Of a stretch of DNA of 64,000 bases, positions 746-33,348 are shown one piece after another. The notes below the pieces were generated by a model. It made no database searches, was not told the origin of the DNA, and worked only from the letters and a program-made list of their open reading frames with translations. Each line of letters opens with the position of its first letter. Positions within the stretch are counted from its first letter, which is position 1. Source of the stretch: a virus; IMG/VR virus record IMGVR_UViG_3300010388_000228, positions 1-64,000 of that record; one strand, written 5' to 3'. Position numbers and translations under genes: made by a program.

Positions 746-769
746 GCGTAGTAGGCTCGCCTACTACGC
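746..769 (+). terminator. Strong hairpin after the envelope gene pair
   Basis: GCGTAGTAGGC (746-756) pairs perfectly with GCCTACTACGC (759-769) around a 2-base turn. There is no U-run behind it, so it is more likely an mRNA 3'-end stabiliser, processing site or attenuator than a classical terminator. Confidence 0.5.
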
Positions 770-788: not shown

Positions 789-983
789 ATGATAATCACA
801 TTACATAGAGTAGTTCATAAATCAACAGTAGAAATTGTAACACACGAAATGGATATTAAAGTAGCGGCTATCACAGCATTCCACGATGGGTTTATAGTAG
901 CAGGTGGCCATCAATTCAATGTAGTAGAGTCTAGATACGAAATCAATCAAAAGATTACAGAGTCAGGTGCAGTATGGGACTAA
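789..983 (+). CDS. Hypothetical protein preceding the array
   Basis: 64 residues, MIITLHRVVHKSTVEIV. It looks like a small beta-rich protein (alternating hydrophobics, FIVAGGHQFNVVESRYE). AAGGA at 778-782 serves as RBS. Its last 10 bases overlap the start of the first array gene, so the two are probably translationally coupled. No known family. Confidence 0.65.
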   Translation: MIITLHRVVHKSTVEIVTHEMDIKVAAITAFHDGFIVAGGHQFNVVESRYEINQKITESGAVWD

Positions 984-1348
984 TACCAGATAACCCATAT
1001 CCATCTAAGCCAAGCTCATACTTTTCAAAAACAATCATTAGCAATAGCGATATGCAAGAGTTAAAAACTGGCATTAGCGAGAAGATGATCAAGCCATTGC
1101 TTAGATGGGCAGGTAGAACTATGCTAAACGTAGAAGTAGCTCCTAGATCCGAAAATAAAATGACATTTGACGAAGCTCAAATGTATATCCTATTCTGCCG
1201 GTATAATGGTAAGAAGAACTGGCGTCTACCTACAAGGCATGAATGGGAAACAATATATGGATGGGAAACACCTGTATGGCTCGTTGAAAAAGACAATGTA
1301 GTTATCGACGAAATGTGGTACGTACAGCCAGTTAGGGATACAAAGTGA
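974..1348 (+). CDS. Array protein 1 (with N-terminal extension)
   Basis: 124 residues, the longest single-domain member. About 50 extra N-terminal residues (MGLIPDNPYPSKPSSYFSK...) precede the standard core MTFDEAQMYILFCRYNGKKNWRLPTRHEWE and the end PVRDTK. The extension may be a targeting or capping segment for the array products, since no other member has it. It has no signal peptide. Its stop TGA overlaps the GTG start of the next gene. Confidence 0.8.
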   Translation: MGLIPDNPYPSKPSSYFSKTIISNSDMQELKTGISEKMIKPLLRWAGRTMLNVEVAPRSENKMTFDEAQMYILFCRYNGKKNWRLPTRHEWETIYGWETPVWLVEKDNVVIDEMWYVQPVRDTK

Positions 1349-1590
1349 TTGAATTGGCACCACTTGAGTTATGGAAATACGACTTAAACAAAGTAGAAGC
1401 TAAGATGGCAATTTTTATGACAAAAGGTTATAGAATTGGAACCCTTGAAGAAATGAATTCTCTAAAAGACGATATACTATCAATAGATGATACTATGTGG
1501 GACGCATGGACATTAGATGCAGTACACAGTGACAACGTTCCGGACACAGAAACTGGAACGTTGATTCCAATAAGGACTAAACAATGTTAG
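1345..1590 (+). CDS. Array protein 2 (degenerate core, GTG start)
   Basis: 81 residues starting with GTG inside the GTGA overlap (MIELAPLELW). WRLPT is replaced by YRIGTLEEM and the end is IPIRTKQC, so it is the most diverged member. It is probably a decaying or re-specialised copy. The reading frame is intact. Confidence 0.7.
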   Translation: MIELAPLELWKYDLNKVEAKMAIFMTKGYRIGTLEEMNSLKDDILSIDDTMWDAWTLDAVHSDNVPDTETGTLIPIRTKQC

Positions 1591-1823
1591 AATATGGTAA
1601 GAAATCAGAAAACGACTTAGACTATGATGGGGCATATATGTATTGCTTTTGGCATGAGCCAGTAGGCACTTGGAGACTTCCAACTGAACAGGAATACTTC
1701 CAGACAATGCTACGCTACCCAGGTAACGTAATACCTAAATGGTACGAAGACAGAGATCAGCTTGAAGAGAAGATCTTTCAACAACCAGCTAAAATGCGTG
1801 TAGTGCCTGTACGATCACTATGA
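1584..1823 (+). CDS. Array protein 3
   Basis: 79 residues. Core LDYDGAYMYCFWHEPVGTWRLPTEQEY lacks the HNNKYD loop. It ends RVVPVRSL. It overlaps the previous stop by 7 bases (ATGTTAG) and begins MLEYG instead of MIE.AP. Confidence 0.8.
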   Translation: MLEYGKKSENDLDYDGAYMYCFWHEPVGTWRLPTEQEYFQTMLRYPGNVIPKWYEDRDQLEEKIFQQPAKMRVVPVRSL

Positions 1824-2080
1824 TCCAAGTCAGTTACTATGCTAACAATATACGGAATCACTATCCAATTGAAGTAGCACCGACTTCTAACGAAATGATG
1901 ACATACGAAAACGCTAAACTCTATGTTCTGTTCTATGAACACAACGGACATAGAGATTGGAGACTGCCTACGTTACAAGAATGGCTTAGCCATAACCCGC
2001 CACTAATAGGGTGGGATGATCATGGAGATGATAGTACTGATATAGTCCGTTATGTAACCCCAGTGAGAGATATAAAATGA
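1820..2080 (+). CDS. Array protein 4
   Basis: 86 residues. It carries about ten extra residues (MIQVSYYANNIRNHYP) before EVAPTSNEMMTYENAKLYV. Core HRDWRLPTLQEW, end YVTPVRDIK. ATGA overlap with array gene 3. It resembles array protein 1 in the EVAP.S...MT segment. Confidence 0.8.
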   Translation: MIQVSYYANNIRNHYPIEVAPTSNEMMTYENAKLYVLFYEHNGHRDWRLPTLQEWLSHNPPLIGWDDHGDDSTDIVRYVTPVRDIK

Positions 2081-2316
2081 TCGAACTAGCACCCGAAACA
2101 CATTGGCTTACGCATTGTACACAAGATGAAGCATCCATGTATATCTTGTTTCAAAAAGGCTGGCGCCTTCCTAAAATAAAAGAACTTAATCAAGTAAGAA
2201 AATTGTTAGGAGTACGCTATATTGTAATATGGACTCAAGAAGCTGTAAGCAACTTTGAAAGTAATCAGCTGATGTATATTAAAGCACGAGTAATCCCAGT
2301 GAGGGACGTATGCTAA
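2077..2316 (+). CDS. Array protein 5
   Basis: 79 residues, MIELAPETHW. The core is shortened to ASMYILFQKGWRLPKIKELNQ, with no cysteine and no NNKYD loop. The end is VIPVRDVC. It starts in an ATGA overlap, and its own stop overlaps the next start by 7 bases (ATGCTAA). Confidence 0.8.
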   Translation: MIELAPETHWLTHCTQDEASMYILFQKGWRLPKIKELNQVRKLLGVRYIVIWTQEAVSNFESNQLMYIKARVIPVRDVC

Positions 2317-2738
2317 AAATGGCTGAGCCATCACCGCATGCCTTATCGTACGACGATGCCTGGCTCTATTGTGCAACTTGTACAGCTGATAGATATTATG
2401 ATTGGCGATTACCTACTTATAATGAGTATCAATCTAACCAATTGCGTAACAGCTACGGTTGGACTGAGGATAGCGACTACAGAGGTAAAATACGAACTTT
2501 CCCAGTAAGGAGTATGAAAACAATTGAAGGCCCAGTATCTATTCCACTACCGTATGACGAAGCTTGGCTATATTGTGCTACCCTAACCCGTGATAACAAA
2601 TACGATTGGCGGATGCCTTCTAGTTTAGAATACAATGATTTAAGTATGGGTAAAACTTGGTATATAGAACGGTTAATGGCCTATAAAAAGAATGATAATA
2701 TCGGCAAGTTGAAAGTAGTACCACTGAGAACTATATGA
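2310..2738 (+). CDS. Array protein 6, two-domain fusion
   Basis: 142 residues containing two complete repeats in one frame: YDDAWLYCATCTADRYYDW...FPVRSM, then PYDEAWLYCATLTRDNKYDW...VVPLRTI. At the junction (about 2511-2516) the usual stop/start overlap is replaced by an in-frame ATG, so neighbouring cistrons have fused or have not yet separated. An internal start at 2513 could still release the second domain alone. Confidence 0.85.
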   Translation: MLKMAEPSPHALSYDDAWLYCATCTADRYYDWRLPTYNEYQSNQLRNSYGWTEDSDYRGKIRTFPVRSMKTIEGPVSIPLPYDEAWLYCATLTRDNKYDWRMPSSLEYNDLSMGKTWYIERLMAYKKNDNIGKLKVVPLRTI

Positions 2739-2953
2739 TTGAACAAGCAGACAAGAATAAGACAAAATTTTTGTATGATGACGCATGGCTCTATTGTGCT
2801 ACCCTAACCCAAGATAACAAGTATAATTGGCGCATACCTACGTTTAATGAATGCTCAAAGTATAATATGGATTCGCATTGGGACACGCGGCCTAGCGAGT
2901 CTTATGCGTACAGAGGTGTTGCATGGTACATAACCCCAGTGAGAGACTTATGA
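2735..2953 (+). CDS. Array protein 7
   Basis: 72 residues. Core YDDAWLYCATLTQDNKYNWRIPTFNE, end ITPVRDL. ATGA overlaps at both ends. With array gene 8 it forms a two-gene unit that resembles genes 9-10. Confidence 0.85.
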   Translation: MIEQADKNKTKFLYDDAWLYCATLTQDNKYNWRIPTFNECSKYNMDSHWDTRPSESYAYRGVAWYITPVRDL

Positions 2954-3156
2954 TTGAACAAGCCCTAAGAACAGATTATGGTATGTGCTATGACTCTGCA
3001 TTCGTATACTGTCTAACATTAGATTATAATGGCCATAAAGATTGGCGATTACCTACACTTGATGAATATGCATCTTCAAACATAACCCGTAGCTGGTATG
3101 AAGGCCGCGAACGCGATTGTTTTAATTGGGCAGCTACCCCAGTGAGAGACCTATGA
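2950..3156 (+). CDS. Array protein 8
   Basis: 68 residues from the ATG in the ATGA overlap at 2950. Core MCYDSAFVYCLTLDYNGHKDWRLPTLDEY, then SWYEGRE and ATPVRDL. It is very close to array protein 10 along its whole length (YDSAF.YC, GHKDWR, EGRE), which marks a recent duplication. Confidence 0.85.
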   Translation: MIEQALRTDYGMCYDSAFVYCLTLDYNGHKDWRLPTLDEYASSNITRSWYEGRERDCFNWAATPVRDL

Positions 3157-3380
3157 TTAAACGAGGCCCAGGGTCACCTAAAAGATTATGCCACGACGAC
3201 GCCTGGCTATATTGTGCTACCCTAACACATGAGAACAAATACGATTGGCGTATGCCCAATCGTTCAGAACACACCTCTATTCCACCTAGTACTTGGTTTG
3301 ATGGTAGGTTTTCTCAGTATTCAGAGTATCATACTAGCATGTCAATGTCTGTAACCCCAGTGAGAGAAATATATGATTGA
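3153..3380 (+). CDS. Array protein 9
   Basis: 75 residues, starting at 3153 (MIKRGPGSP). Core CHDDAWLYCATLTHENKYDWRMPNRSE, end VTPVREIYD. Its stop lies 8 bases inside the next gene (ATGATTGA), the first example of the second overlap register. Confidence 0.85.
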   Translation: MIKRGPGSPKRLCHDDAWLYCATLTHENKYDWRMPNRSEHTSIPPSTWFDGRFSQYSEYHTSMSMSVTPVREIYD

Positions 3381-3579
3381 ACGAGCTCCAAGAACAACTT
3401 ATGAAATGTGCTATGACTCTGCATTCTTATACTGCCTAATATTAGAATATAAGGGACATAAAGATTGGCGAATACCTACTGAAGAAGAATATTCAACTTT
3501 AACAATTTCATACGGTTGGCATGAAGGCCGGGAGTGGAGTGCCTTTAAATGGGGAGTTACCCCAGTGAGAGACATATGA
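3373..3579 (+). CDS. Array protein 10
   Basis: 68 residues. Core MCYDSAFLYCLILEYKGHKDWRIPTEEEY, then GWHEGREW and VTPVRDI. Sister copy of array protein 8, with a conserved neighbour order (7-8 versus 9-10). Confidence 0.85.
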   Translation: MIERAPRTTYEMCYDSAFLYCLILEYKGHKDWRIPTEEEYSTLTISYGWHEGREWSAFKWGVTPVRDI

Positions 3580-3794
3580 TTGAATTATACGAATATCCTA
3601 AATCATTAAAAGTAAGCTATGCGGACGCTGAACTGCTATCTTGGACTTGTACACACAACAACAAGTATGATTGGAGACTTCCTACAAAGTGGGATGATAT
3701 CCCATTCATTATGCAAGTTGAATGCTGGAATCCAACTGGCTCACCTTACGAGTTTGAATACAGAAAGTTTAGACCGGTAGTATTAGTAAGATGA
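3576..3794 (+). CDS. Array protein 11
   Basis: 72 residues from 3576. Core VSYADAELLSWTCTHNNKYDWRLPTKWDD. The usual PVRD end is altered to RPVVLVR, so the terminal aspartate is lost. It overlaps array gene 12 by ATGA. Confidence 0.8.
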   Translation: MIELYEYPKSLKVSYADAELLSWTCTHNNKYDWRLPTKWDDIPFIMQVECWNPTGSPYEFEYRKFRPVVLVR

Positions 3795-4003
3795 TTGAAA
3801 TAGGACCATCACTACACAAAGTTGATTATGATACTGCTTGGTTATATACCGCCACTCTAACACATAAAGACAAATACGATTGGCGATGGCCTACACTCTC
3901 TGACTTTCGTCATGTCCATAATATCCCAAATTCAATATGGTATCAAGGCTATCTTCCTAACCAATTAGACACACGAAAGATATACCCAGTGAGAGACATA
4001 TGA
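3791..4003 (+). CDS. Array protein 12
   Basis: 70 residues. Core VDYDTAWLYTATLTHKDKYDWRWPTLSDF (W in place of L), end IYPVRDI. ATGA overlaps at both ends. Confidence 0.85.
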   Translation: MIEIGPSLHKVDYDTAWLYTATLTHKDKYDWRWPTLSDFRHVHNIPNSIWYQGYLPNQLDTRKIYPVRDI

Positions 4004-4230
4004 TTGAAACTGCTCCAGTAAGTAAGGTTACACTACCATTTGACATCGCATGGATGTATGTGTTATTATTAGACTATAACAACAAAAAAGACTGGCGATT
4101 ACCAACCTTTGATGAAATTTTAGAAAATGATAGCCTACAAGTTGGAGTATGGACTAAAGAATACATTGACTCAAGCCCAGATTATTCTAAATGGTTTAAA
4201 AAACCAGTAACTCCAGTGAGAGACATATGA
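4000..4230 (+). CDS. Array protein 13
   Basis: 76 residues, beginning MIETAPVS like proteins 14 and 15. Core FDIAWMYVLLLDYNNKKDWRLPTFDE (cysteine replaced by V), end VTPVRDI. Confidence 0.85.
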   Translation: MIETAPVSKVTLPFDIAWMYVLLLDYNNKKDWRLPTFDEILENDSLQVGVWTKEYIDSSPDYSKWFKKPVTPVRDI

Positions 4231-4451
4231 TTGAAACTGCTCCAGTAAGTATAGATACACTACCATTTGACATAGCATGGCTCTATTGTGCTACCCTAAC
4301 ATATGATAACAAAAACGACTGGCGATTTCCTACATTTGGTGAATATGTATACGATCTTAATACAATAGTGGGTGTATGGCATGAGAGTGATAGTAACAAT
4401 CGCACCAGCTTTTCACGATACGCACAACCAGTAAGGACCAAAGATGATTGA
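4227..4451 (+). CDS. Array protein 14 (mosaic)
   Basis: 74 residues. The first about 18 residues match array protein 13 (MIETAPVS..TLPFDIAW), but the centre is the LYCATLTYDNKNDWRFPT class and the end is AQPVRTKDD. This mosaic structure fits recombination between neighbours. It overlaps the next gene by 8 bases. Confidence 0.85.
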   Translation: MIETAPVSIDTLPFDIAWLYCATLTYDNKNDWRFPTFGEYVYDLNTIVGVWHESDSNNRTSFSRYAQPVRTKDD

Positions 4452-4677
4452 AACTGCGCCAGTAAGTGAGGATAAACTAACATTTGACGAAGCCTGGCTG
4501 TATGTGTTATTATTAGACTACAACAACAAAAAAGACTGGCGCTTACCCGAGTTTCTTGAATATATGCACGAATACGATGTTAATAAAACAGGGTTCCTAT
4601 GGTTTTTGGACACTACTCCTGCCAACATTCACAGCCTCACCCGCCGCACACTACCAGTAAGGACTAAAGATGATTGA
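4444..4677 (+). CDS. Array protein 15
   Basis: 77 residues. MIETAPVSEDKLTFDEAWLYVLLLDYNNKKDWRLPE is split here as MIETAPVS, FDEAWLYVLLLDYNNKKDW and RLPEFLEY, matching protein 13 rather than its direct neighbour 14. End TLPVRTKDD. Start and stop are both in the 8-base overlap register. Confidence 0.85.
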   Translation: MIETAPVSEDKLTFDEAWLYVLLLDYNNKKDWRLPEFLEYMHEYDVNKTGFLWFLDTTPANIHSLTRRTLPVRTKDD

Positions 4678-4900
4678 ACACGCGCCGTTAGTCAAATACC
4701 TTAGTATAGATGAAGCTGAACTATACACAATGACACTTACCTATAACAACAAGTATGACTGGAGAATTCCTACTATACCTGAACTAAAAACAATACCAAG
4801 GCATTTTCTACCTGTATGTTGGCATCAACATGATCTTATAGCACCACGGCTTGAAGATATGAAATGCGGAGTAATAGCAGTGAGGACTAAAGATGATTGA
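4670..4900 (+). CDS. Array protein 16
   Basis: 76 residues. Core LSIDEAELYTMTLTYNNKYDWRIPTIPEL, end VIAVRTKDD. 8-base overlaps on both sides, with AAGGA-like sequence before the next start. Confidence 0.85.
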   Translation: MIEHAPLVKYLSIDEAELYTMTLTYNNKYDWRIPTIPELKTIPRHFLPVCWHQHDLIAPRLEDMKCGVIAVRTKDD

Positions 4901-5096
4901 AGCAGCGCCTTTTTCACCATTGATGGCATACGACGATGCATTCTTATATGCAATAACCTGTACACATAACGACAAGTATGACTGGCGAATACCTGTTCCT
5001 AGTGACTTCTCCAACAAATTAGCTGCTAAACCAAGAACACTAGGTCAACGCCGCAAAATACAATTTTGCCCAGTAAGAGGATCAATAGATGATTGA
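4893..5096 (+). CDS. Array protein 17
   Basis: 67 residues, the shortest member. Core MAYDDAFLYAITCTHNDKYDWRIPVPSDF, end FCPVRGSIDD. The variable stretch before the C-terminus is unusually short and basic (KPRTLGQRRK). Confidence 0.85.
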   Translation: MIEAAPFSPLMAYDDAFLYAITCTHNDKYDWRIPVPSDFSNKLAAKPRTLGQRRKIQFCPVRGSIDD

Positions 5097-5334
5097 AATG
5101 GGACCAATAATTACAACACATCATGTTGACTACGATACCGCATTGTTAGCTACCATAACCTGTACGTTCGGCAATCACTATGATTGGCGTGTGCCTACAG
5201 ACGACGAATGGATAAGTTATGGTTGGATAAAAAGTTGGACTTGGAACGAATCTCGCATGGCTAGATATTCAGGTATTCCTCATGAGGATATCGTATCGTA
5301 TGCACTTTGCATAGTAAGGAATAAAGATGAGTAA
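5089..5334 (+). CDS. Array protein 18
   Basis: 81 residues. Core VDYDTALLATITCTFGNHYDWRVPTDDEW, end ALCIVRNKDE. The YC pair of the consensus is lost. 8-base overlap with the next gene (ATGAGTAA). Confidence 0.85.
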   Translation: MIEMGPIITTHHVDYDTALLATITCTFGNHYDWRVPTDDEWISYGWIKSWTWNESRMARYSGIPHEDIVSYALCIVRNKDE

Positions 5335-5542
5335 GTATATAGAAATAGCCCCTACCACTACTCTGTTTACGTATGACGAAGCATGGCTCTACTGTGCTAC
5401 ATTGACTCATAATGGCAAATATAATTGGAGAATACCTACCGAAAACGAGTATTTAGATTATGAGATTGATGGTTGGTTAGATGAAGAAAAAGACGACTAC
5501 GTGTTGTGGCCTCAACAAGTAACCCCAGTGAGAGATGTATGA
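5327..5542 (+). CDS. Array protein 19
   Basis: 71 residues, MSKYIEIAP. Core FTYDEAWLYCATLTHNGKYNWRIPTENEY, end VTPVRDV. The variable part is very acidic (WLDEEKDDY). Confidence 0.85.
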   Translation: MSKYIEIAPTTTLFTYDEAWLYCATLTHNGKYNWRIPTENEYLDYEIDGWLDEEKDDYVLWPQQVTPVRDV

Positions 5543-5778
5543 TTGAAATAGGTAAAACAACAGCCGTTGCGCTTGACTATGACACTGCATGGCTTTATAC
5601 TATTACTTCAACTTACAACAACAAATACGATTGGCGAATGCCATCTTGGTACGAATGGGGCGTATATACGGTCATTCCACAAGATGCATGGACCGATAAC
5701 CTTACTCCTGTTGATCAGTGGGGAAACCTAATTTATAACTTTGGTACCTTAGTGAGAGATATTAAAGATGATGTTTGA
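5539..5778 (+). CDS. Array protein 20
   Basis: 79 residues from 5539 in an ATGA overlap. Core LDYDTAWLYTITSTYNNKYDWRMPSWYEW, end GTLVRDIKDDV, where the proline before VRD is lost. Confidence 0.85.
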   Translation: MIEIGKTTAVALDYDTAWLYTITSTYNNKYDWRMPSWYEWGVYTVIPQDAWTDNLTPVDQWGNLIYNFGTLVRDIKDDV

Positions 5779-5989
5779 ATATGCAACGCATAGTGAAGAG
5801 TCAGTTAGCTTTGACCAAGCATGGCTCTATTGTGCTACTTGTACACATAAAGACAAATACGATTGGCGTTTACCAACACACAAAGAATGGATTATGAATG
5901 ATATCCCATATTATGTTTGGTTTAATGATCGTTTTGCCGTTGCTGCTGAAGTGTACAGTGTAGTACCAGTAAGGGGGTATGAATGGTAG
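5771..5989 (+). CDS. Array protein 21
   Basis: 72 residues. ATGs at 5768 and 5771 are both possible. I prefer 5771 (MFEYATHS) because it restores the MxE start and the 8-base overlap used elsewhere in the array. Core VSFDQAWLYCATCTHKDKYDWRLPTHKEW, end VVPVRGYEW. Confidence 0.8.
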   Translation: MFEYATHSEESVSFDQAWLYCATCTHKDKYDWRLPTHKEWIMNDIPYYVWFNDRFAVAAEVYSVVPVRGYEW

Positions 5990-6237
5990 TTGGCCCACAC
6001 TCAACAATACAACTAACTGCAGAAGAAGCTGACCTGTTTATTTGGACTTGCTCACACAATAACAAATACGATTGGCGAGCCCCATCTGCCCATGAATGTA
6101 CTAGATCAAGATTTAATAAAACCGCAAATATGACTTGGACAACTTACCGACTTATCGTTGCCGATGAAGCCTCCAGAAGAGGATATGGTGACGCTAGGTT
6201 CTTTGCAGCCACAGTGAGAGATAATAATGGCATTTGA
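5983..6237 (+). CDS. Array protein 22
   Basis: 84 residues, MVVGPHST. Core LTAEEADLFIWTCSHNNKYDWRAPSAHEC, end FAATVRDNNGI. It immediately precedes the embedded oxygenase and overlaps its start by 11 bases. Confidence 0.8.
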   Translation: MVVGPHSTIQLTAEEADLFIWTCSHNNKYDWRAPSAHECTRSRFNKTANMTWTTYRLIVADEASRRGYGDARFFAATVRDNNGI

Positions 6238-6838
6238 TATACAACCGTTGTTTGCAAACCCAGTACTTACAACTATTCCGGACGGTATGGTAACACCTTA
6301 CTATAATGCAATTAACCATTGCAAGGCATTAGATTATTATATCAATGTAGGACGTAACTTAACAAGCAGCGATACAAAGATACTAGATCATCCAGTATTT
6401 GTAGAAATTAACGATCTGATACAACATGCGATTAATCAATATGCACATGACATAATGAAATGGGATAACGTTGAGCTTTATGTTACCCAATCTTGGATCA
6501 ATATTAACCCTAAAGGTACCGAACATCATAGTCACTATCACCCAAATAGCGTAATTAGTGGTGTATTCTATCTTCAAACAGTTACTGATGATTCTATTGT
6601 GTTTCGAAACGATAACTGCTCGTTACCATTTGAATTTGATAGAACTGAGTATAACATATGGAATTCTAATATATGGAGGATTCCTGTATCTACTAATGAA
6701 ATTGTGATTTTTCCATCAAGCCTGTGGCATAGTGTTGATACCCACGATGATGATGTTGATAGGATTAGCATTGCATTTAATGTATTCTTCCGAGGCCATG
6801 CCGGTGGTGAAATTCGATTAACTCACTTACCCTTATGA
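6227..6838 (+). CDS. 2OG-Fe(II) oxygenase embedded in the array
   Basis: 203 residues resembling the phage-enriched 2-oxoglutarate/Fe(II) oxygenase family (TIGR02466/PF13759 type). Visible hallmarks are H100-H105 (EHHSHYH) followed by SGVFYL, then FPSSLWHSV with H168, and R179 in DRISIAFNVF as the likely 2-oxoglutarate anchor. Enzymes of this fold hydroxylate or otherwise oxidise proteins, nucleobases or small molecules. The gene overlaps array gene 22 by 11 bases and array gene 23 by ATGA, so it is a full member of the polycistron. The context suggests, but does not prove, that array proteins are its substrates. Confidence 0.8.
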   Translation: MAFDIQPLFANPVLTTIPDGMVTPYYNAINHCKALDYYINVGRNLTSSDTKILDHPVFVEINDLIQHAINQYAHDIMKWDNVELYVTQSWININPKGTEHHSHYHPNSVISGVFYLQTVTDDSIVFRNDNCSLPFEFDRTEYNIWNSNIWRIPVSTNEIVIFPSSLWHSVDTHDDDVDRISIAFNVFFRGHAGGEIRLTHLPL

Positions 6839-7071
6839 TTGAACACGCACCTGAAACCCCTATACACAATATAGAACTTACTGAACTATTTGCTTGGACT
6901 TGTACACACAACAACAAGTACGATTGGCGAGTGCCTACCATACTAGAACAAGAGCAATCTAAAAAAGATAAGTGTAGGCTTGCAACCGTGTATTATGATG
7001 AAACTGAAGCCGGCAGGCTACCCATTACATACACCAACACTGCTAAGTTTATCCCAGTGAGAGACGTATGA
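6835..7071 (+). CDS. Array protein 23
   Basis: 78 residues. Core NIELTELFAWTCTHNNKYDWRVPTILEQ, lacking the DeAw motif, with end FIPVRDV. Its ATGA start overlaps the oxygenase stop, exactly as array members overlap each other. Confidence 0.85.
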   Translation: MIEHAPETPIHNIELTELFAWTCTHNNKYDWRVPTILEQEQSKKDKCRLATVYYDETEAGRLPITYTNTAKFIPVRDV

Positions 7072-7286
7072 TTGAAATAGCATACAAAAGCCGAGATAAA
7101 CTATGCAAAGACCCAGCTTGGCTCTATTGTGCCACTTGTACACACGATAACAAGTATGACTGGCGACTTCCAACTGATCATGAACTTAATACTGATGAAC
7201 TGCTAAACTCCAGTTATCAATTTACTTGGGCAGAAGACGATATGGCCGGCTATGTCCTATACGCAATCCCAGTGAGAGACTTATGA
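7068..7286 (+). CDS. Array protein 24
   Basis: 72 residues. Core LCKDPAWLYCATCTHDNKYDWRLPTDHEL, end AIPVRDL. ATGA overlaps at both ends. Confidence 0.85.
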   Translation: MIEIAYKSRDKLCKDPAWLYCATCTHDNKYDWRLPTDHELNTDELLNSSYQFTWAEDDMAGYVLYAIPVRDL

Positions 7287-7510
7287 TTGAACAAGCACCT
7301 CGATCCCCTAAACTATACAGAGACGAAGCATTCCTGTGGGTTTGGACTTGCTCACACAATAACAAATACGACTGGCAACTTCCAATCAGACACGACGCTA
7401 GCGACGGCTGGAATAGCTGGAATGCTTACAAATTGAATATGTTTGAACACGACAAATCGTACGAATGGATGCACTGGCCAATCACACCCGTGAGAACTAC
7501 TAATGATTGA
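7283..7510 (+). CDS. Array protein 25
   Basis: 75 residues starting at 7283 (MIEQAPRS). Core YRDEAFLWVWTCSHNNKYDWQLPIRHD has Q for R and I for T in the WRLPT motif. End ITPVRTTND. 8-base overlap with the next gene. Confidence 0.85.
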   Translation: MIEQAPRSPKLYRDEAFLWVWTCSHNNKYDWQLPIRHDASDGWNSWNAYKLNMFEHDKSYEWMHWPITPVRTTND

Positions 7511-7709
7511 ACAAGCACCAAAACTTAAACAAGAGCTGGATTATGACGAAGCTTGGCTTTACTGCGCCACACTAACCCACAATAACAAATACGACTGGCG
7601 CCTCCCTACACATAAAGAATACATGAGCCACGAACACATCGTAGGTTGGTTTAAACACAGAGATAGCTGGGGAGACTTCCCAATTATACCCGTGAGAGAC
7701 AAACTATGA
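7503..7709 (+). CDS. Array protein 26 (consensus-like)
   Basis: 68 residues and the closest to the family consensus: LDYDEAWLYCATLTHNNKYDW, RLPTHKEY, IIPVRDKL. Confidence 0.85.
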   Translation: MIEQAPKLKQELDYDEAWLYCATLTHNNKYDWRLPTHKEYMSHEHIVGWFKHRDSWGDFPIIPVRDKL

Positions 7710-7954
7710 TTATCGAACAAGCTCCCCCATCACTCCAACCCCTGTCTATAGAAGATACCTTCTTATACACTATAACTTGCTCACACAACAACAAACACGA
7801 CTGGCGTCTCCCCACCCATAAAGAGGTAGCTTACTATGCTTTGAACAACTGCTGGCGCAATATTGATAGCGACGATAACAATGACTGGGCTAAGACTAGA
7901 TGGCACAATTGGAGTTCTCGCTATGTGTGTATCCCCGTGAGAGACAAACTATGA
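7706..7954 (+). CDS. Array protein 27
   Basis: 82 residues, MIIEQAPPS (one inserted residue). Core LSIEDTFLYTITCSHNNKHDW, RLPTHKEV, end CIPVRDKL. The variable stretch is tryptophan-rich (CWRN, WAKTRWHNW). Confidence 0.85.
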   Translation: MIIEQAPPSLQPLSIEDTFLYTITCSHNNKHDWRLPTHKEVAYYALNNCWRNIDSDDNNDWAKTRWHNWSSRYVCIPVRDKL

Positions 7955-8190
7955 AAGAAACCGCCATACAATCTAAACATAAACAAACCCAAGACGAAGC
8001 GTTCTTGTACATTATAACCTGTACACATAACAATCATTACGACTGGAGATTCCCTACTATATACGAATTTATATATAGTGGATTTTTTACTAATCGAGAT
8101 GTTTGGAATATTGAGAATGTGAATAATCCGTATCTTAATATAGTAAAAGTGAAATATATGACTCTTCCTATTAGAGATATAAAGAGATAA
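7951..8190 (+). CDS. Array protein 28 (last member)
   Basis: 79 residues from the ATGA at 7951 (MKETAIQSK). Core QTQDEAFLYIITCTHNNHYDW, RFPTIYEF, end TLPIRDIKR. It ends with a TAA that overlaps no further gene. About 590 bp without an evident gene follow. Confidence 0.85.
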   Translation: MKETAIQSKHKQTQDEAFLYIITCTHNNHYDWRFPTIYEFIYSGFFTNRDVWNIENVNNPYLNIVKVKYMTLPIRDIKR

Positions 8191-8712
8191 TGCAACACAT
8201 CCATTGCATACACATACTATAGTAAGAATAACGATAATAATAACTCTTTACATACCATAACACACTATAGTATAATAAGCAATAGTTACAGCAATCCAAA
8301 CTATAGTAACAGTAAACGCTATAGTATAATAAGTATGCCTAACTATCCACACTATAGTATAGACTATAGTGATAATACTAATGATCCACGCTATAGTAAG
8401 AGAATCATAGAGGTTCCCTATAGTAGCGTATAAGAGAACCCTGACTATAGTAAAAACTATAGTATAGAGATGAAAGCGAGGCCTGCAAAAAATTTTTTGA
8501 AAAAGGTTAACAATAGATGAGGCCTATGGTGGTTACAGGAGATATTGTTAACCAATGGCAGCAGGCCTGCAGGAATTATGAGGTTTTTGGAGGTTTTGGC
8601 AAAAGTATGACGCAAGTATGGTGGTATTCATTGTAGCTATGCCGTCCAACCACCCATTCCTGCTATATCGTTACAGTTATATTACAGTGGTAAAATTGTG
8701 CCAAAACAGTGC
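8191..8712. other. Gene-free region with palindrome cluster and inverted repeat
   Basis: About 520 bp without a convincing ORF. It holds ten nCTATAGT octamers (8217-8463), three AGGCCTgc blocks (8479, 8519, 8563) and an 11-bp inverted repeat, GGTTAACAATA (8505-8515) with TATTGTTAACC (8543-8553). No U-run terminator was found directly after the array. Confidence 0.6.
8217..8463. repeat. Cluster of ten nCTATAGT octamers
   Basis: Copies begin at 8217, 8264, 8300, 8319, 8351, 8363, 8390, 8417, 8444 and 8456. Seven or more are the perfect palindrome ACTATAGT, and copies from 8363 to 8444 are spaced exactly 27 bp. The phasing resembles iterons or operator arrays, so it may be a replication origin or repressor cluster. 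The function is inferred. Confidence 0.6.
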
Positions 8713-9018: not shown

Positions 9019-9897
9019 ATGCAACAACCAATAGCTAAACCCCAAATGATTACTATAGACACTCTTAAGTCAACTCGTACTATAGCGCAAAGACCAGCCG
9101 AACCAGTATCACACGAAACAGATGAAGAGATTGTAGAACGATTGCGTACACGGTTTGCCATACTAGATAACATGACTCGTGCAGTAAAGAAAGGTGATGT
9201 GCGAGCAATGATTGTAAGTGGACCTCCGGGCGTAGGTAAGTCACATGGTATTGAAACAGTGTTATCTAGACACGATGTATTCGCTACTATAGCGCAAGAT
9301 GACAGCTTAAAGAAGTATGAGATTGCTAAAGGTAACATTAGCGCGTTAGGACTGTACCAGATGCTGTGGAACTTCAAAGACCATCGCTCTATAGTAGTGT
9401 TTGATGACTGCGATAGTGTATTGTTTGATGATATCGCGTTAAACCTGTTAAAAGCAGCATTGGACACAGGGCGCAAGCGTACTATCAGTTGGCACACAGA
9501 GTCACGCATACTAAAAGAAGCAGGGATTCCAAACAGTTTTGACTTTGAAGGTGGATGTATATTCATTACAAATGTTAAGTTTGACCATGTACGTAGTAAG
9601 AAGTTAAAGGACCATTTAGAAGCGTTAGAGTCACGGTGCCACTACTTGGATCTCACTATAGATACAGAGCGCGAAAAGATGTTACGCATCAAGCAAATCG
9701 TAGGGGATGGAATGCTTGATAAGTATGAGTTCGTCAATGGCGAAGCGGACGAAGTAGTACAGTATATAGACGCGCATAGAAAGAAGATGCGTGAGTTAAG
9801 TTTGCGTATGGTTCTTAAGGTTGCCGACTTGCGTAAGAGCATGCCAAACAACTGGGAGACTGTAGCTTCCATTACATGTATGCGACCACAACGATAA
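9019..9897 (+). CDS. AAA-family ATPase
   Basis: 292 residues. Walker A GPPGVGKS at 68-75 and Walker B IVVFDDCD at 125-132 define a P-loop AAA domain. A sensor-1-like FITN lies near 184 and arginine-rich segments follow (ESRCHY, MRELSLRM). The combination resembles the stand-alone AAA ATPases common in large marine myophages, whose partner proteins are generally unknown; clamp-loader or helicase-loader roles are possible. It has its own promoter and is followed by three hairpins that include a terminator. Confidence 0.8.
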   Translation: MQQPIAKPQMITIDTLKSTRTIAQRPAEPVSHETDEEIVERLRTRFAILDNMTRAVKKGDVRAMIVSGPPGVGKSHGIETVLSRHDVFATIAQDDSLKKYEIAKGNISALGLYQMLWNFKDHRSIVVFDDCDSVLFDDIALNLLKAALDTGRKRTISWHTESRILKEAGIPNSFDFEGGCIFITNVKFDHVRSKKLKDHLEALESRCHYLDLTIDTEREKMLRIKQIVGDGMLDKYEFVNGEADEVVQYIDAHRKKMRELSLRMVLKVADLRKSMPNNWETVASITCMRPQR

Positions 9898-9949: not shown

Positions 9950-9951
9950 AC

Positions 9952-9984
9952 ACTATAGTATAGATTCGCTCCCTATACTATAGT
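9952..9984 (+). promoter_or_regulatory. Hairpin 2 of three with an identical loop
   Basis: A 12-bp perfect stem (ACTATAGTATAG with its complement) closes the loop ATTCGCTCC at 9964-9972. The stem incorporates the CTATAGT octamer. Confidence 0.7.
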
Positions 9985-9992
9985 AAACTCTC

Positions 9993-10034
9993 AAAGCTCA
10001 CTTTAGATTCGCTCCCTAAAGTGAGCTTTTTCTT
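9993..10034 (+). terminator. Rho-independent terminator, hairpin 3 with the shared loop
   Basis: A 14-bp perfect stem (9993-10006 with 10016-10029) closes the loop ATTCGCTCC (10007-10015) and runs into TTTTTCTTTAT. It is a convincing intrinsic terminator for the AAA ATPase transcript. Confidence 0.8.
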
Positions 10035-10367
10035 TATATTAAAAACCAGACCCTGTACTCTGGTACTAGGTCGGTCTATAAACGTGAAAAACGGCAAAAA
10101 CATGGTGTTGCAGACCGCTAACGACGCGGGCCAAAAACCAAAGATGAGTCTTAAATATAGGAGCCTGGACTAGTAATAGGCCCCGCTGTGCAGTTATACT
10201 CATATGCGTATATGCGTGTATTATTACACTATAGTGTATCATAGCGTAAAATGCGCTGTAATGCGTTACACGCGCTGGTGCGTACTTATGCTATAGTATG
10301 TTATGCGCTTATAATATAACACGCTACACACGCACATACAAGCGAGCGTATACGAGTAACAAAGTTC
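10035..10367. other. Gene-free stretch with possible structured RNA
   Basis: There is no convincing ORF. At 10045-10125 nested helices can be drawn: ACCAGA with TCTGGT, then GTCGGTCT with AGACCG and CGAC enclosing two small hairpins, AACATGGTGTT and CGTGAAAAACG. The 10190-10330 part is an alternation of TATA and GCG blocks with one GGCCCCGCTG copy at 10179. Confidence 0.35.
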
Positions 10368-10396
10368 TTTACAGACCCCGCTGTATATGTTATACT
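10368..10396 (+). promoter_or_regulatory. Sigma70 promoter with GRCCCCGCTG in its spacer
   Basis: TTTACA 10368-10373, 17-bp spacer, TATACT 10391-10396. The repeated decamer GACCCCGCTG occupies the spacer (10374-10383). Confidence 0.7.
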
Positions 10397-10429
10397 ATGT
10401 ACTTACTAACAACAACTGCGGAGCACGCA

Positions 10430-10732
10430 ATGAAGTTATGCAATGTACCACAAGACTTATTAGCAAAGCAAGCAATGATAGATACTATTCCAGACATGAT
10501 TTGGATAGCACTAATAGTAACCTTGCTTAGTGGACTATACTATATGTATAAGAGGTTACGGGCAGATGATGCATTAGATCCAAAGGATGATGTAGCAATG
10601 GGATTCTTTCTTATAGTATTAACTATCGGCGGAGCACTGTTGTCAGCCGAGTTGCTCAAACATATCATAACCGCATTCCTTAATCCAGAGTATGCAGCAA
10701 TGGTTAAGTTTACTGCAGAGTGCGTCAAATGA
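10430..10732 (+). CDS. Two-span membrane protein
   Basis: 100 residues from the ATG at 10430, preceded by GCGGAG. An upstream in-frame start would lie inside the promoter. Hydrophobic spans lie at about residues 25-42 (IWIALIVTLLSGLYYMY) and 58-80 (MGFFLIVLTIGGALLSAELL), separated by a charged loop KRLRADDALDPKDD. It overlaps the secreted transglycosylase by ATGA, so the pair may form an envelope-acting or lysis unit. A holin role is possible. Confidence 0.7.
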   Translation: MKLCNVPQDLLAKQAMIDTIPDMIWIALIVTLLSGLYYMYKRLRADDALDPKDDVAMGFFLIVLTIGGALLSAELLKHIITAFLNPEYAAMVKFTAECVK

Positions 10733-11277
10733 TCCGCGCTGCCATTCTCGCTACTATAGTAGTAATGCCGATACATGCGGATGTGTATCGGTATACAGGA
10801 GCAGATGGGAGAGTTTGGTTAACTGATCATCCACAAGAGATCGCAACATCTGCCAAACCTACTACTATAGTAAAGAAACCGGAGACTCGCCCACTAACTC
10901 GATGGGAGATCAACCACTATGTTCATGCTGCGGCAAAGAAGTATGGAGTGGATGAGAAGTTAGTTCATGCAGTCATTAAAACGGAAAGTACATATCGTAA
11001 ATCGGCTGTAAGTAAGAAGGGAGCAGCTGGATTGATGCAGCTGATGCCAGCAACGGCAGAGCGATTTGGTGTGAGTGATCGGATGGATGAGCGGCAGAAC
11101 ATAGAGGGCGGAGTCCGGTTCCTAAGGTTCTTGCTCGATACATTCAAAGATACCAAACTAGCGGTTGCCGGATACAATGCGGGCGAGCATGCGGTAATGC
11201 GACATAAGAACCGGATTCCACCATATCCGGAAACCCGAAACTATGTGGGATTGGTAATGGCGGCATACACTGAATAA
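10729..11277 (+). CDS. Secreted lytic transglycosylase (SLT family)
   Basis: 182 residues. A signal peptide (MIRAAILATIVVMPIHA) is followed by a DUF4124-like stretch (VYRYTGADGRVWLTDHP, residues 19-35) and a family-1 SLT domain. Catalytic Glu86 sits in IKTES; GLMQLMPATA (101-110) and AGYNAGEHAV (147-156) are classic SLT motifs. It should cleave peptidoglycan glycan strands in the periplasm, releasing anhydromuropeptides. The start is the ATG in the ATGA overlap at 10729. The early-type promoter and the signal peptide suggest a secreted cell-wall enzyme rather than a virion-borne one. It may act in lysis or as a host-wall modifier. Confidence 0.88.
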   Translation: MIRAAILATIVVMPIHADVYRYTGADGRVWLTDHPQEIATSAKPTTIVKKPETRPLTRWEINHYVHAAAKKYGVDEKLVHAVIKTESTYRKSAVSKKGAAGLMQLMPATAERFGVSDRMDERQNIEGGVRFLRFLLDTFKDTKLAVAGYNAGEHAVMRHKNRIPPYPETRNYVGLVMAAYTE

Positions 11278-11285
11278 CAAACCAG

Positions 11286-11314
11286 TTGACAACCAATGCG
11301 TAGTTTGCTATACT
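11286..11314 (+). promoter_or_regulatory. Sigma70 promoter of the 29-residue membrane peptide
   Basis: TTGACA 11286-11291, 17-bp spacer, TATACT 11309-11314. GAGGAG lies upstream of the ATG at 11349. Confidence 0.7.
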
Positions 11315-11348
11315 ATGCGTGTACTATATATAAGAGGAGCAAGCAATA

Positions 11349-11438
11349 ATGTCGTTTTTATATAATTTCGCAGTGTTTACTACTATAGTATTACTAAGTG
11401 TAATCGCGTTATTGAACTGGTATGAGTTAGTGATTTAA
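11349..11438 (+). CDS. 29-residue single-span membrane peptide
   Basis: MSFLYNFAVFTTIVLLSVIA then LLNWYELVI. It is a single hydrophobic span with a consensus promoter and a good RBS (GAGGAG) of its own, which argues it is real despite its size. It is possibly a modulator of a host membrane protein. No family was recognised. Confidence 0.6.
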   Translation: MSFLYNFAVFTTIVLLSVIALLNWYELVI

Positions 11439-11804: not shown

Positions 11805-12167
11805 ATGTCAAAAGTAATCACAGTTGCAACAGTTGAAAAAACATTCACATTCGCTGGCGTTAGCGACCTCAACGGTGTGTACAAAATCCGCTTTGCTAAC
11901 AGCGCGGATCGTGTGAAAGTGTTACACCGCAATGGGCACTTAGACATTCGCTTAGTAGCGTTAGCGGGTGCAATGACTAAATATGAAGCAGCAATGGCAA
12001 TCAAAGACTTAGAGGAGTTCGCGGACTTAGATGCACAACAAGCATTCGATGACTTCTTTAGCAAAACTGCTATCGTTACTCCCAAAACTGCTGTAATTGA
12101 GACAGCAGATGATGTAGACTATGCGGCAGCAGCAGATGCATTGGAAGCTGAGTTAGCGACAGCATAA
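11805..12167 (+). CDS. Early protein, KIRF family member 1
   Basis: 120 residues. It shares a pattern with the proteins at 17662 and 19551(-): F.GVSDLNGVYKIRF..S, then GHLDIRLVAL, and a C-terminal helical part with A..AF.DFFSK. The N-terminal half looks beta-rich and the C-terminal half alpha-helical and acidic. The duplication within the early region suggests a useful dose or divergence against host targets. TTGGAGCG precedes the start. Function unknown. Confidence 0.75.
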   Translation: MSKVITVATVEKTFTFAGVSDLNGVYKIRFANSADRVKVLHRNGHLDIRLVALAGAMTKYEAAMAIKDLEEFADLDAQQAFDDFFSKTAIVTPKTAVIETADDVDYAAAADALEAELATA

Positions 12168-17528: not shown

Positions 17529-17578
17529 TTAACACTACTACAGCGTGCTAATTATGCAAAATAAAACTAAAAAAACAC

Positions 17579-17607
17579 TTGCTTTTACTGTAAAAAAAGT
17601 GTATAAT
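17579..17607 (+). promoter_or_regulatory. Second, internal promoter of the 17662 gene
   Basis: TTGCTT 17579-17584, 17 bp, TATAAT 17602-17607. It lies between a potential upstream ATG (17554) and the preferred ATG (17662), giving two alternative transcripts. Confidence 0.55.
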
Positions 17608-17661
17608 GTGCAACATAAATTAAACTTAGTAACAAACAACAACACAAGTGGAGCGAACACT

Positions 17662-18039
17662 ATGAACACAACAACAAACACAACACCAGTTTTTGCACAA
17701 GTAGTAACAGCAAGCTCAAAAGCCAACAGCAAATTAGTACAATGCGTGGGTGTTAGCGATCACGCAAAGCTGGGCTACAAAATACGCTTTAGCGGCAAGC
17801 CCGAAGCAACGGCGCGTGTTACTACGCTAATTGCAACAAAATTACACACGGACATCCGCTTTATAAACTTAGCACAAATTAAAACGGAAATTGAGGCAGC
17901 TGTAGAATTAGAAGGGCATCCAAACTTTGCAGATGACAACGCGCAAATGGCTATTGCGGCGTTTTTAAGCAAGCATAACGCAACGGAAGTACAGGCAGCA
18001 AGAGACGCGTATGCGGAACTGTTAGCACAGGCGGCATAA
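17662..18039 (+). CDS. Early protein, KIRF family member 2
   Basis: 125 residues from the ATG at 17662, which follows GTGGAGCG. The frame is open to an ATG at 17554, which would add 36 residues. It aligns with the 11805 and 19551(-) products: SKLVQCVGVSDHAKLGYKIRF, then HTDIRFINL and DDNAQMAIAAFLSKH. Function unknown. Confidence 0.72.
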   Translation: MNTTTNTTPVFAQVVTASSKANSKLVQCVGVSDHAKLGYKIRFSGKPEATARVTTLIATKLHTDIRFINLAQIKTEIEAAVELEGHPNFADDNAQMAIAAFLSKHNATEVQAARDAYAELLAQAA

Positions 18040-19550: not shown

Positions 19551-19952
19551 TTAGTTAGGTATTAAACATAATCCTGCATCAATAACGTGCTGTTTTGCTG
19601 CATCAATTTCCCCTTGTTGGTGCTTGTTAATGAACAATTCTAGTGCATTAACATGGTTATCACTAAAAGGCGTTCTATCGCTCGTTATTAGTGCATAGTT
19701 AGCGACTAATGTTAATGCGGCTTGTAATTGTGTACATGGCGCACTAATTTTGTACATTAACACTTCTGTATGCCCACATTGTGTGCTTTGCAAGTGACTT
19801 GCACGTTTGCTAACGTTTGCATCAGCACTAAAACGAGTTGCATACCCTATTGTATCTTTTGGGTGCTTGCTTACACCGAACCCTTGCACTAATTTTGCGC
19901 TGTTAGGTGTGCTTGTTGTTACTGCGTAGCTAATTGCTTGTTGTGCTTGCAT
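19551..19952 (-). CDS. Early protein, KIRF family member 3 (inverted)
   Basis: 133 residues. It aligns with the 17662 product: SAKLVQGFGVSKHPKDTIGY, ATRFS, a GH.(D/E) segment and the end LELFINKHQQGEIDAAKQHV. It is the only early gene of this block on the minus strand, with a complete promoter, leader hairpin and terminator of its own, so it moved or inverted as an expression unit. Function unknown. Confidence 0.75.
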   Translation of the reverse strand: MQAQQAISYAVTTSTPNSAKLVQGFGVSKHPKDTIGYATRFSADANVSKRASHLQSTQCGHTEVLMYKISAPCTQLQAALTLVANYALITSDRTPFSDNHVNALELFINKHQQGEIDAAKQHVIDAGLCLIPN

Positions 19953-20918: not shown

Positions 20919-23603
20919 TCATTGTTGTTGTAAAGCTGGGTCACTTCTATTTGGATTATTTCTATCGTCTTCATCCATATTATTAACAGTATCTAAAAAT
21001 GTTTCATCCCAGCCACCATTATACTGAGCGCGTTCTAATAAGTAGTTGTATTGTTCTTCAGTCATAAGTTCTTTTGGCACTGCAGACATAGTTTCTGGAT
21101 CGTGTTCTATTGCAAGTTTACAAAGTTCAAAGGTGCGATGATATCTTGGTATACCTACTAGCACGCCACCTTGCTCAGCTGCGTTACCGGTAGTAACTGC
21201 TGCTGCATGTAGCTCAAATAGTTCTTCTGGAGTAAACAATTTTTCAAGTTCTCTATAGTTTGCTTTACCTAGGCAATGTGAATTTTCAGCCTCATCTGAA
21301 TCCATATTTTCAACCATTATTTGTTTTATCTGTTGTTTAGCGTTGTCATCAAACAAGTGCCATGGGAAGTTAGCACTACAAATTGCGTATAAGTGATCCG
21401 TGCCGCCTGCATCTTCATAATCATCCCACCATTTTTCACGCATTTCGGATGTAAAGTCGCCGCCTAGAATTCCTATTGCAGCTGACCATAAGCTAAGTTC
21501 ATCGCGTGGAGTATTCATAATTTCAGGTAACTTATTACTGCCAATCAATGACCACGGATCGCTGAATACATGTTTTATATATAGTTCTTTGATCTTGTCT
21601 TCACTTAAAAAGGATGGAGGTTTAATATGGCCGTTAAACAGATAGGTTGAGTTGTTTGTGAGATGAGACATCCAAATATCTTTTAGTTCATTTTCAGTAA
21701 ATAAGCCATCTGGGATGTTATTAAAATCAACTATAGAATGTCGTGATTTTGATCGTGCAATCCACATATCTTTTTCATCTTTAGGCCCTAACAATGATAT
21801 TGGGAACTTACTATTATTAATCAAGTCAGGCTGCGCTTTAAGTGCTGCCATCCATATTTCAAGTTTTTGTTTAGGGTCAGTTATAAAATCTGGCATGCGA
21901 ACAATTGCGGCAGGTTTCTGTTCAAGTGCCTTTAATCGAATTTTATTTTTTTCTTCTTTTGAAAATATAGTAGTTTCATCAAACAAATCATGAGTCGCTT
22001 GGAACGGGTTAGATTCTATAGCTGCCAACCACATATCTTTTATCTCGTCATTACTAAACAGATTTGCTGGAAGGCCTGGATGATTTAAGTTGCCTATCGA
22101 TCGTATAATTTCATTGCGCCACAGTTCTTTAGTTTCAGCCGGTGTAAATAAGTTTTCTGGCCAATCGTCTGTACCTATGAAATCTTTAGCTGCAGGAGTC
22201 CATGCTTGTTTTAGTTCGTCTGTAGACCAACCAGTAGTAGTTACTGATTTAATAAGTTTCGGTACTAACTTTATTGCTTGGTGTGCTAGCTCTTTATATT
22301 TAGGTGCTCTAACAGGAATCATCTCAACTGCATATGGTCTTACCTTAATTACCTCTGACATTATGTTATAATTAGATCTAGTACGGGTACTTGCATATCC
22401 AACATCACTAGGGTTTTGTTTTAGATAGGCAGTAATACGGCGTTCCCAGTTAATAAGTGTTTCCGGGGCATAGATAATCATAATTGAACTTGTGTTAATA
22501 GCTTCTTCCCATACTTCACTTGATTGATTTATAGTACCTGCTTCGTCAACCAGTACACTAAGTCCTGCTAATTGTTGTATTGCATAGGTTCTAAATTCAG
22601 GATTAGCGCGAATATCTTGAGGTGCTCTTAAAAAATCAATTGGATATTTTTTAATTTGATCTGTAATTAATTGTGGTTTACTTTGAGCAATGTCTAATAC
22701 TAATGGTTCGTCCATATCAAATAAAGAAAAGTCACTTGATGGTTGATATGTCTTTCCTGTATATATGCCGTTAACTAAATCACTCTTTAACAGTGCTAAT
22801 AATGCGTAATGGAATTTCTTTGCTGGTTTAGAATTACTTCTACCTTTGCTTTGATGCAATACTCCGGTGTCTTTATTGTATTCAATAGTAACCCATGGTG
22901 TAGGTATTTTATCACGTAAACTTAATAATACATTACTGTTACTAGAAGCTGTGCCACAATGTCCCATAAACTTAGATTCTGCAGTGTGCTTATTAGTAGG
23001 TAGTAACCACCAATCACCTTGATTGCCAAGTGGTAATATAATTTGATCACCTGGCAAAATTTCAACCGGGGTTGCGTTCTTAATTTTAGATTCGTTTTCT
23101 TTTGTAATTTTTTCTACTGCTGCAGTTGCATTAGTAATAAGATTATCAACTTGGGTAGTAGCAGGTTTAATTGCTTTAACGATGTCTTTAATATGTTGCG
23201 ATGCGGCATATTCAGATGTAAAGAAATGTGCTAACTCTTCGTTTAATGAACTAAAATCACTGAACTGATATTGGCCAATCATTGCTTCAAACTTGCCTGC
23301 AAATTTAGGTTCGTTTCTTTTATAGTAAGTTTCAATTAATGACAAGTACCATTGCATTGCTTGTTCAGATGGGTTAGCGCCGGCTCTAAATGCTTCTTCA
23401 GCAAATTGAACTAATGCTGTTAATTGGGGTTCATCTGGAACAGATGGATCGCCTGGGATTGCAGGTTGTGCAGGTCCCCATTGTGTTTCTGGTTTCTCTG
23501 GGAAGCCTGCTCTTAGTTGAGCAAAGTCTTTATGTAGCTTAGTAACTTTAGTGTCGTATGCTTCAAAAAGATTTATTGTTTCGTATAATTCTCTTAATTT
23601 CAT
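20919..23603 (-). CDS. Giant paralogue 1, possible head-internal protein
   Basis: 894 residues. The N-terminus MKLRELYETINLFE followed by AYD looks like a T4 capsid-targeting sequence ending in a gp21 protease site (LxE). Residues 200-270 hold the conserved block ESKFMGHCGTASSN, LLSLRDK, VTIEY, HQSKGRSNSKPA, which recalls PcfJ-type proteins (EG..M.HCV, SLR, TxE, Q.rG..N). The C-terminal half consists of about 35-40-residue helical repeats (LFTENELKDIWMSHL, LFSNDEIKDMWLAAI). It is paralogous to the next two genes. Packaging with DNA and injection is inferred, and the biochemical activity is unknown. Confidence 0.8.
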   Translation of the reverse strand: MKLRELYETINLFEAYDTKVTKLHKDFAQLRAGFPEKPETQWGPAQPAIPGDPSVPDEPQLTALVQFAEEAFRAGANPSEQAMQWYLSLIETYYKRNEPKFAGKFEAMIGQYQFSDFSSLNEELAHFFTSEYAASQHIKDIVKAIKPATTQVDNLITNATAAVEKITKENESKIKNATPVEILPGDQIILPLGNQGDWWLLPTNKHTAESKFMGHCGTASSNSNVLLSLRDKIPTPWVTIEYNKDTGVLHQSKGRSNSKPAKKFHYALLALLKSDLVNGIYTGKTYQPSSDFSLFDMDEPLVLDIAQSKPQLITDQIKKYPIDFLRAPQDIRANPEFRTYAIQQLAGLSVLVDEAGTINQSSEVWEEAINTSSIMIIYAPETLINWERRITAYLKQNPSDVGYASTRTRSNYNIMSEVIKVRPYAVEMIPVRAPKYKELAHQAIKLVPKLIKSVTTTGWSTDELKQAWTPAAKDFIGTDDWPENLFTPAETKELWRNEIIRSIGNLNHPGLPANLFSNDEIKDMWLAAIESNPFQATHDLFDETTIFSKEEKNKIRLKALEQKPAAIVRMPDFITDPKQKLEIWMAALKAQPDLINNSKFPISLLGPKDEKDMWIARSKSRHSIVDFNNIPDGLFTENELKDIWMSHLTNNSTYLFNGHIKPPSFLSEDKIKELYIKHVFSDPWSLIGSNKLPEIMNTPRDELSLWSAAIGILGGDFTSEMREKWWDDYEDAGGTDHLYAICSANFPWHLFDDNAKQQIKQIMVENMDSDEAENSHCLGKANYRELEKLFTPEELFELHAAAVTTGNAAEQGGVLVGIPRYHRTFELCKLAIEHDPETMSAVPKELMTEEQYNYLLERAQYNGGWDETFLDTVNNMDEDDRNNPNRSDPALQQQ

Positions 23604-23668
23604 TAATTGTCCTTAATATCTATAAGCGGTTGAGTCAGGTAACAGTAGTGTATAGTCTCAGAGTGTTT

Positions 23669-26077: not shown

Positions 26078-26086
26078 TAGGTGTCC

Positions 26087-31484: not shown

Positions 31485-31513
31485 AGGATTAGTTAATTTA
31501 AAAGTATATTATA

Positions 31514-32341: not shown

Positions 32342-32360
32342 TGGCAATATCCTTTATATA

Positions 32361-33339: not shown

Positions 33340-33348
33340 TATTTATGC

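Follow-up and report, generated by a model that had tools for sequence, protein, structure and literature searches.

The locus analysed here raises the question of what a long run of small, similar and overlapping genes is, and what it could do for the phage that carries it. The stretch studied (the window, 64,000 nucleotides) forms the beginning of a virus record of 98,182 bases, assigned to a T4-like myovirus on the basis of its terminase (46321-47961) and tail sheath (52583-56032); the terminase is closest to those of PA5oct-like jumbo phages (53% identity). Positions 974-8190 of the plus strand hold 28 small overlapping ORFs corresponding to 29 modules, one ORF being a fused pair, with the common plan M-I-E-x-A-P ... 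D-x-A-x-L-Y ... W-R-x-P-T-x-x-E ... W ... P-V-R-[DT]. The original prediction described them as DUF1566/C-lectin-like mini-proteins with strongly variable flanks, made in parallel from one mRNA, and knew of no described tandem cistron array of this kind; likewise, no precedent is described in the literature that we searched, the coverage of which was incomplete.

Layout of the array and coupling of its genes

When the leader ORF and an inserted oxygenase gene are included, the chain consists of 30 ORFs, with neighbours overlapping by no more than 14 nt. The longest comparable chain in 8201-64000 has 4 ORFs, and none exceeded 4 when the region was dinucleotide-shuffled 100 times. Overlaps of 4-11 nt were present at 29 of the 29 junctions (16 of 4 nt, seven of 8 nt, three of 7 nt, two of 11 nt and one of 10 nt). 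A module profile gave 29 matches in the 98-kb record, all of them inside the array (window scores 1e-11 to 1e-30) and 0 outside it. The comparison with shuffles and the confinement of the profile matches confirm the run of 28 overlapping ORFs with a common plan.

The predicted array proteins are 67-142 aa long. The first gene of the operon is a conserved leader ORF (789..983, plus strand, 64 aa) that overlaps module 1 by 10 nt. Module 1 (974..1348, 124 aa) carries an N-terminal extension of ~50 aa and is the first array member in all four syntenic loci; modules 2-5 follow at 1345..2316 (ORFs 1345-1590, 1584-1823, 1820-2080 and 2077-2316), and modules 1-4 have the best-conserved orthologues in relatives. 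Next come a fused double module (2310..2738, 142 aa), in which two HMM domains share a single ORF with an internal PVRSM join (GTAAGGAGTATG), and 16 mini ORFs (2735..6237; starts at 2735, 2950, 3153, 3373, 3576, 3791, 4000, 4227, 4444, 4670, 4893, 5089, 5327, 5539, 5768 and 5983). The run is broken once, which the original prediction did not mention, by a 2OG-Fe(II) oxygenase gene (6227..6838; 2OG-FeII_Oxy_5, PF13759, E 2e-20), a non-member joined to the array by the same kind of overlap on both sides. The last six mini ORFs occupy 6835..8190 (starts at 6835, 7068, 7283, 7503, 7706 and 7951); like all the preceding ones, they are on the plus strand. Paralogues of the oxygenase are found at 64820 and 66349 of the contig, in a region (60980-70652) that also encodes Trp-halogenase-like proteins, a carbamoyltransferase and a heptosyltransferase-like protein.

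Codon usage at the module ends points to the way in which these genes may be translated. The valine of the closing PVR motif is encoded by GTG in 47/64 cases, compared with 7% in the long genes of the phage, and the arginine by AGA or AGG in 66/70, compared with 114/261 inside the modules (p 5e-16). This bias of the last PVR codons to GTG/GTA-AGA/AGG is found mainly where another gene follows: AGR occurs in 103/119 modules with an overlapping next gene and in 7/17 without one (p 1e-4). The resulting GTGAGAGACAT or GTAAGGACTAAAG sits just 5' of the next ATG. Because of the codon bias and the control with followed and unfollowed modules, we consider the PVR codons a putative ribosome-binding site, and very likely the tail codons of one protein double as that of the next gene. 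A ribosome that finishes one gene would thus re-initiate on the next at the shared ATGA or ATGATTGA, using a ribosome-binding site that is encoded within the C-terminal PVR(D/T) motif of the protein just completed. Together with the overlaps at all junctions, the bias and its control support the production of the set from one coupled polycistron. The junction DNA is strongly repeated and could be a recombination substrate too; it is only near the junctions, not in the core, that paralogues clearly share more codons than expected. This design of overlap and embedded ribosome-binding site offers a testable rule for the growth of long coupled operons.

A hairpin scan revealed GCGTAGTAGGctcgCCTACTACGC at 746..769 (plus strand), 5' of the leader ORF. 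A hairpin occupies the equivalent position in L011, L016 and L018 and is thus kept in four phages; that of L018 has matching changes in both arms (GCGTAGTGAG/CTCACTACGC). Matches in a sigma-70 promoter scan were no more numerous than in shuffles. The intergenic region at the array end (8210..8470) contains ten copies of CTATAGT, seven of them as the palindrome ACTATAGT and some inside a -10-like CTATAGTATAAT, and such elements also occur 3' of sister arrays. The palindrome or its heptamer clusters at 8216-8463, 8973 and ~9950-11390, often fused to a -10-like TATAAT, and 19 of the 27 heptamers of the contig fall in 8.2-11.4 kb; the cluster resembles a set of related promoters with operators. 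To the right of the array lies an AAA ATPase gene (9019..9897, plus strand, phrog_1250), a neighbour that is syntenic in relatives, and the surroundings consist of small non-structural ORFs, distant from the tail and head genes. Further along the window, a small protein family, FTxAGVSxLxGxYKxRFA..., has three copies (11805-12164, 17554-18036 and 19554-19952; no Pfam match for the one copy scanned); other phages have relatives of it close to their AAA gene. On the minus strand, three adjacent large paralogues of 802-992 aa (20919-29065) show weak DUF4116 matches, and the two that were scanned had no PHROGs match.

Fold and variation of the modules

Pfam Lcl_C (PF07603) matched 19 of the 29 modules at E ≤1, with a best value of 2.5e-5 and none above the cut-off: the curated threshold is 34.9 bits, and the window modules reach at most ~23.5. 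The link to this family comes from the sister loci L013 and L015, in which full-length Lcl_C proteins (E 3e-16, above the Pfam cut-off) stand among the minis and share with them the MNIEIAP start, the WRLPT core and the VR end; one full-length sister-locus copy matches the solved C-terminal domain of Legionella Lcl (8q4e, E 2.5e-5). That domain is C-type-lectin-like, trimeric and disulphide-free (PMC11162425). The W, R, P, V and R residues are each kept in >90% of 127 modules, with WRLPT..E preceding VR, the order found in Lcl_C. The minis thus resemble Lcl_C/DUF1566 in the WRLPT..E core, the closing VR motif and the predicted disulphide-free fold; in contrast, they are 20-30 residues shorter, free-standing and arrayed, score below the cut-off, and lack the YWSS...AW..F..G middle present in the full-length copies (L015).

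Structure prediction, which the original prediction had proposed as a check, gave two confident AF2 models, one for module 7503-7706 (pLDDT 94.7, 127 sequences) and one for the divergent module 2 (pLDDT 94.9). Both show the order beta-beta-alpha-alpha-(loop)-beta-beta, with two helices between N- and C-terminal beta hairpins, and their Foldseek lists consist mostly of C-type-lectin and Link domains (A33R, Link modules, CLEC domains). Since all Foldseek E values were >0.1, the fold is assigned from the kinds of domain that fill these lists and from the sequence link to full-length Lcl_C described above. The top neighbours, the Link module and the C-lectin-like domains of poxvirus A33R/A35R, share a compact C-lectin fold with the minis; however, these domains are extracellular and have no detectable sequence relation to them. 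We take the minis to be a shortened, derived branch of Lcl_C that does not belong to the family by Pfam's own rule; the scaffold would have arisen through loss of the middle strands. Hence, the DUF1566 identity originally proposed holds for the C-lectin-like fold, on the combined evidence of the sub-threshold matches, the full-length sister copies and the models, but not for a full Lcl_C domain. A PDB search with the mini profile was non-significant, its best matches being coronavirus papain-like proteases (E 0.17).

Variation is concentrated in one segment. Per-position entropy reached ~3-4 bits at most positions of residues ~37-60, which lie between helix 2 and the final strands, are rich in W, Y, H and D, and differ in sequence and length. 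The strong variability noted originally is therefore real for this segment and does not extend to the whole module, the core of which is conserved. In C-lectin DGR proteins, the strands and loops near the equivalent segment form the binding site (PMC5006420), so that the minis may combine a fixed core with a variable segment at the place where other C-lectin proteins bind ligands.

Comparison of 19 orthologous modules of two sister arrays (L011 and L016) gave a dN/dS of 0.29 overall, 0.21 for the core and 0.44 for the variable segment. The overall value shows that ORFs of this type are selected as proteins, and on this evidence those of the array are genuine ones. In none of these comparisons did dN/dS exceed 1 in the variable segment; judged by these ratios, selection on it is relaxed purifying and not clearly diversifying. 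Codon identity of the core among paralogues was 0.43-0.45 against an expected 0.40-0.41; gene conversion of the core is unsupported, and no recent expansion was seen. Because this identity is near the random expectation, most paralogues appear to be old.

Sister arrays and a second scaffold

Arrays of more than five members, which the original prediction suggested looking for in other phages, were found, within the incomplete collections searched, only in a small clade of jumbo-phage contigs of up to 372 kb; all contigs are metagenomic. They comprise 47 and 49 modules in two 372-kb contigs, 44 in an 88.6-kb contig, 25 in a 47.6-kb contig (the array also present in one 372-kb contig) and 23 in a 171.6-kb contig, plus smaller ones. 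The sister arrays are syntenic, sharing their leader, initial module and adjacent AAA gene, and contain 29, 25, 20 and 8 modules. A DNA search of 50,697 phage records yielded no match; tblastn gave none with one module and only five, all at E ≥2, with a consensus query; a scan of bacterial genomes returned full-length DUF1566 proteins only. No module occurs in PA5oct, Phosso, Vibrio 2.275 or CBB, which are named relatives, and no array was present in the stretches examined of 27 other contigs with the AAA gene, which are more distant relatives.

Synonymous divergence between L011 and L016 was ~0.11 across the 19 shared modules, compared with 0.74 in the upstream gene, 0.53 in the module 1 domain and 1.28 in the AAA gene; two small genes further upstream were also low. 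Six of the 25 modules of L011 had no match in L016, and one of the 20 of L016 had none in L011. Because dS is ~0.11 in the array but ~0.5-1.3 in most flanking genes, the substitution data show for this one pair that the array moved between related jumbo phages as a cassette, almost exactly at its edges. The window array is more distant, with only ~7 clear orthologues in L011.

In the 372-kb relative G005, a second array (L018:459-5383) lies beside a shortened mini-lectin array. It consists of ORFs of 50-83 aa, many with 4-nt overlaps, and carries the motif HRxNGPA...W...HRYYGPA...W.LHG..IK, which is unrelated to that of the mini-lectins and for which no Pfam family was found. More copies are located at 19.9-27.3 kb and 365.3-368.0 kb of G005, bringing the family to 56 modules there, most of them in overlapping arrays of similar type; PA5oct and Agrobacterium phage Atu_ph07 also carry the family, as single or repeated copies. 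Since the same locus bears a different small scaffold in a similar architecture, these observations suggest that what selection maintains is the arrangement and not the lectin fold.

Candidate roles of the array

We propose that one operon would give rise to ~28 small soluble proteins, each a compact, disulphide-free C-type-lectin-like domain, which would constitute an intracellular repertoire of small protein binders. To the binder repertoire as a whole we assign an even chance, and a smaller one to counter-defence, its likeliest use. The modules have no conserved cysteine pair, and their charge ranges from ~-9 to +2. Action inside the infected cell is presumed because the proteins show no obvious signal peptide or membrane segment. 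Members may capture and inactivate a range of host proteins, with defence effectors foremost among them, much as immunity-gene arrays act against varied toxins. The immunity-gene arrays of Bacteroidales (orphan immunity or acquired interbacterial defence clusters) are also tandem sets of small cytosolic proteins whose repertoire is gained and lost, as here; their members, however, need not share a fold, whereas the phage array has one scaffold and all its cistrons are coupled. PADLOC, whose models cover defence and hardly anti-defence, gave no match for the 29 modules. The repertoire turns over as whole cistrons are gained or lost and as arrays pass between related jumbo phages, the latter shown for the pair L011 and L016.

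The next best explanation, which we consider improbable, is that the minis sit on the particle or its fibres and recognise a variety of glycans, in the manner of phage receptor-binding proteins with C-lectin domains. Lcl binds glycosaminoglycans (PMC11162425), and phage receptor-binding proteins have C-lectin domains as variable tips (PMC5006420); however, the module is absent from the long fibre-like proteins of the contig and from the rest of the 98-kb record, the array stands among small non-structural ORFs by the AAA ATPase and at a distance from the genes for head and tail, and no module other than possibly module 1 shows a region for anchoring or oligomerisation. Somewhat less probable still is a neutral or selfish expansion, in which duplicates with little function accumulate by recombination at the repeated junctions. 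The strongly repeated junction DNA, a possible substrate for unequal crossing-over, and the mostly old paralogues free of positive selection would fit it, but not the purifying selection over the 19 orthologues, the conserved fold core, the reading frames and overlaps intact throughout, or the exchange of the cassette between phages. An assembly of near-equal amounts of pseudo-identical subunits into a hetero-oligomer is unlikely: tight coupling predicts balanced output and the Lcl C-terminal domain is a trimer (PMC11162425), yet the module number varies (29, 25, 20, 8) through single gains and losses that a fixed assembly would not allow. Finally, mutagenic copying by a DGR is very improbable even though DUF1566 and C-lectin folds are among the known DGR variable proteins (Mtd, TvpA and AvpA hold a variable surface on a C-lectin fold), since no reverse transcriptase (PF00078) was found in the window's contig, the two 372-kb relatives or the 171-kb relative, the minis lack most of the strands on which known DGR proteins carry their variable region, and variety here takes the form of many fixed genes.

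If the binder repertoire is real, the phage holds dozens of ready-made binders on one message, traded between lineages, by a route to binding diversity distinct from DGRs or CRISPR. The modules would be a source of natural mini-scaffolds of ~70 aa that, by prediction, need no disulphides to fold, and the partner of each member would be a handle on new host defences. A broader and more tentative reading, which we regard as possible at rather longer odds than the repertoire itself, is that this jumbo-phage clade keeps binder libraries on at least two unrelated scaffolds (the mini C-lectin and HRxNGPA/HRYYGPA), the tail-embedded ribosome-binding site letting any cistron come, go or be swapped with expression intact, as a gene-encoded, immune-like intracellular repertoire against host defences.

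Tandem C-lectin/FGE-like genes also occur in Microcystis phage MaMV-DL02, in which three adjacent FGE-type (RLPTEAEWEYACR) proteins, annotated as hypothetical, are encoded at 29977-35150 (L070); unlike the array genes, these are only three, full length and non-overlapping. Several smaller phage contigs (L042-L057) encode full-length DUF1566 proteins, one or two in each; phages that are otherwise alike differ in the C-terminal region of these proteins, a pattern that recalls DGR variable regions.
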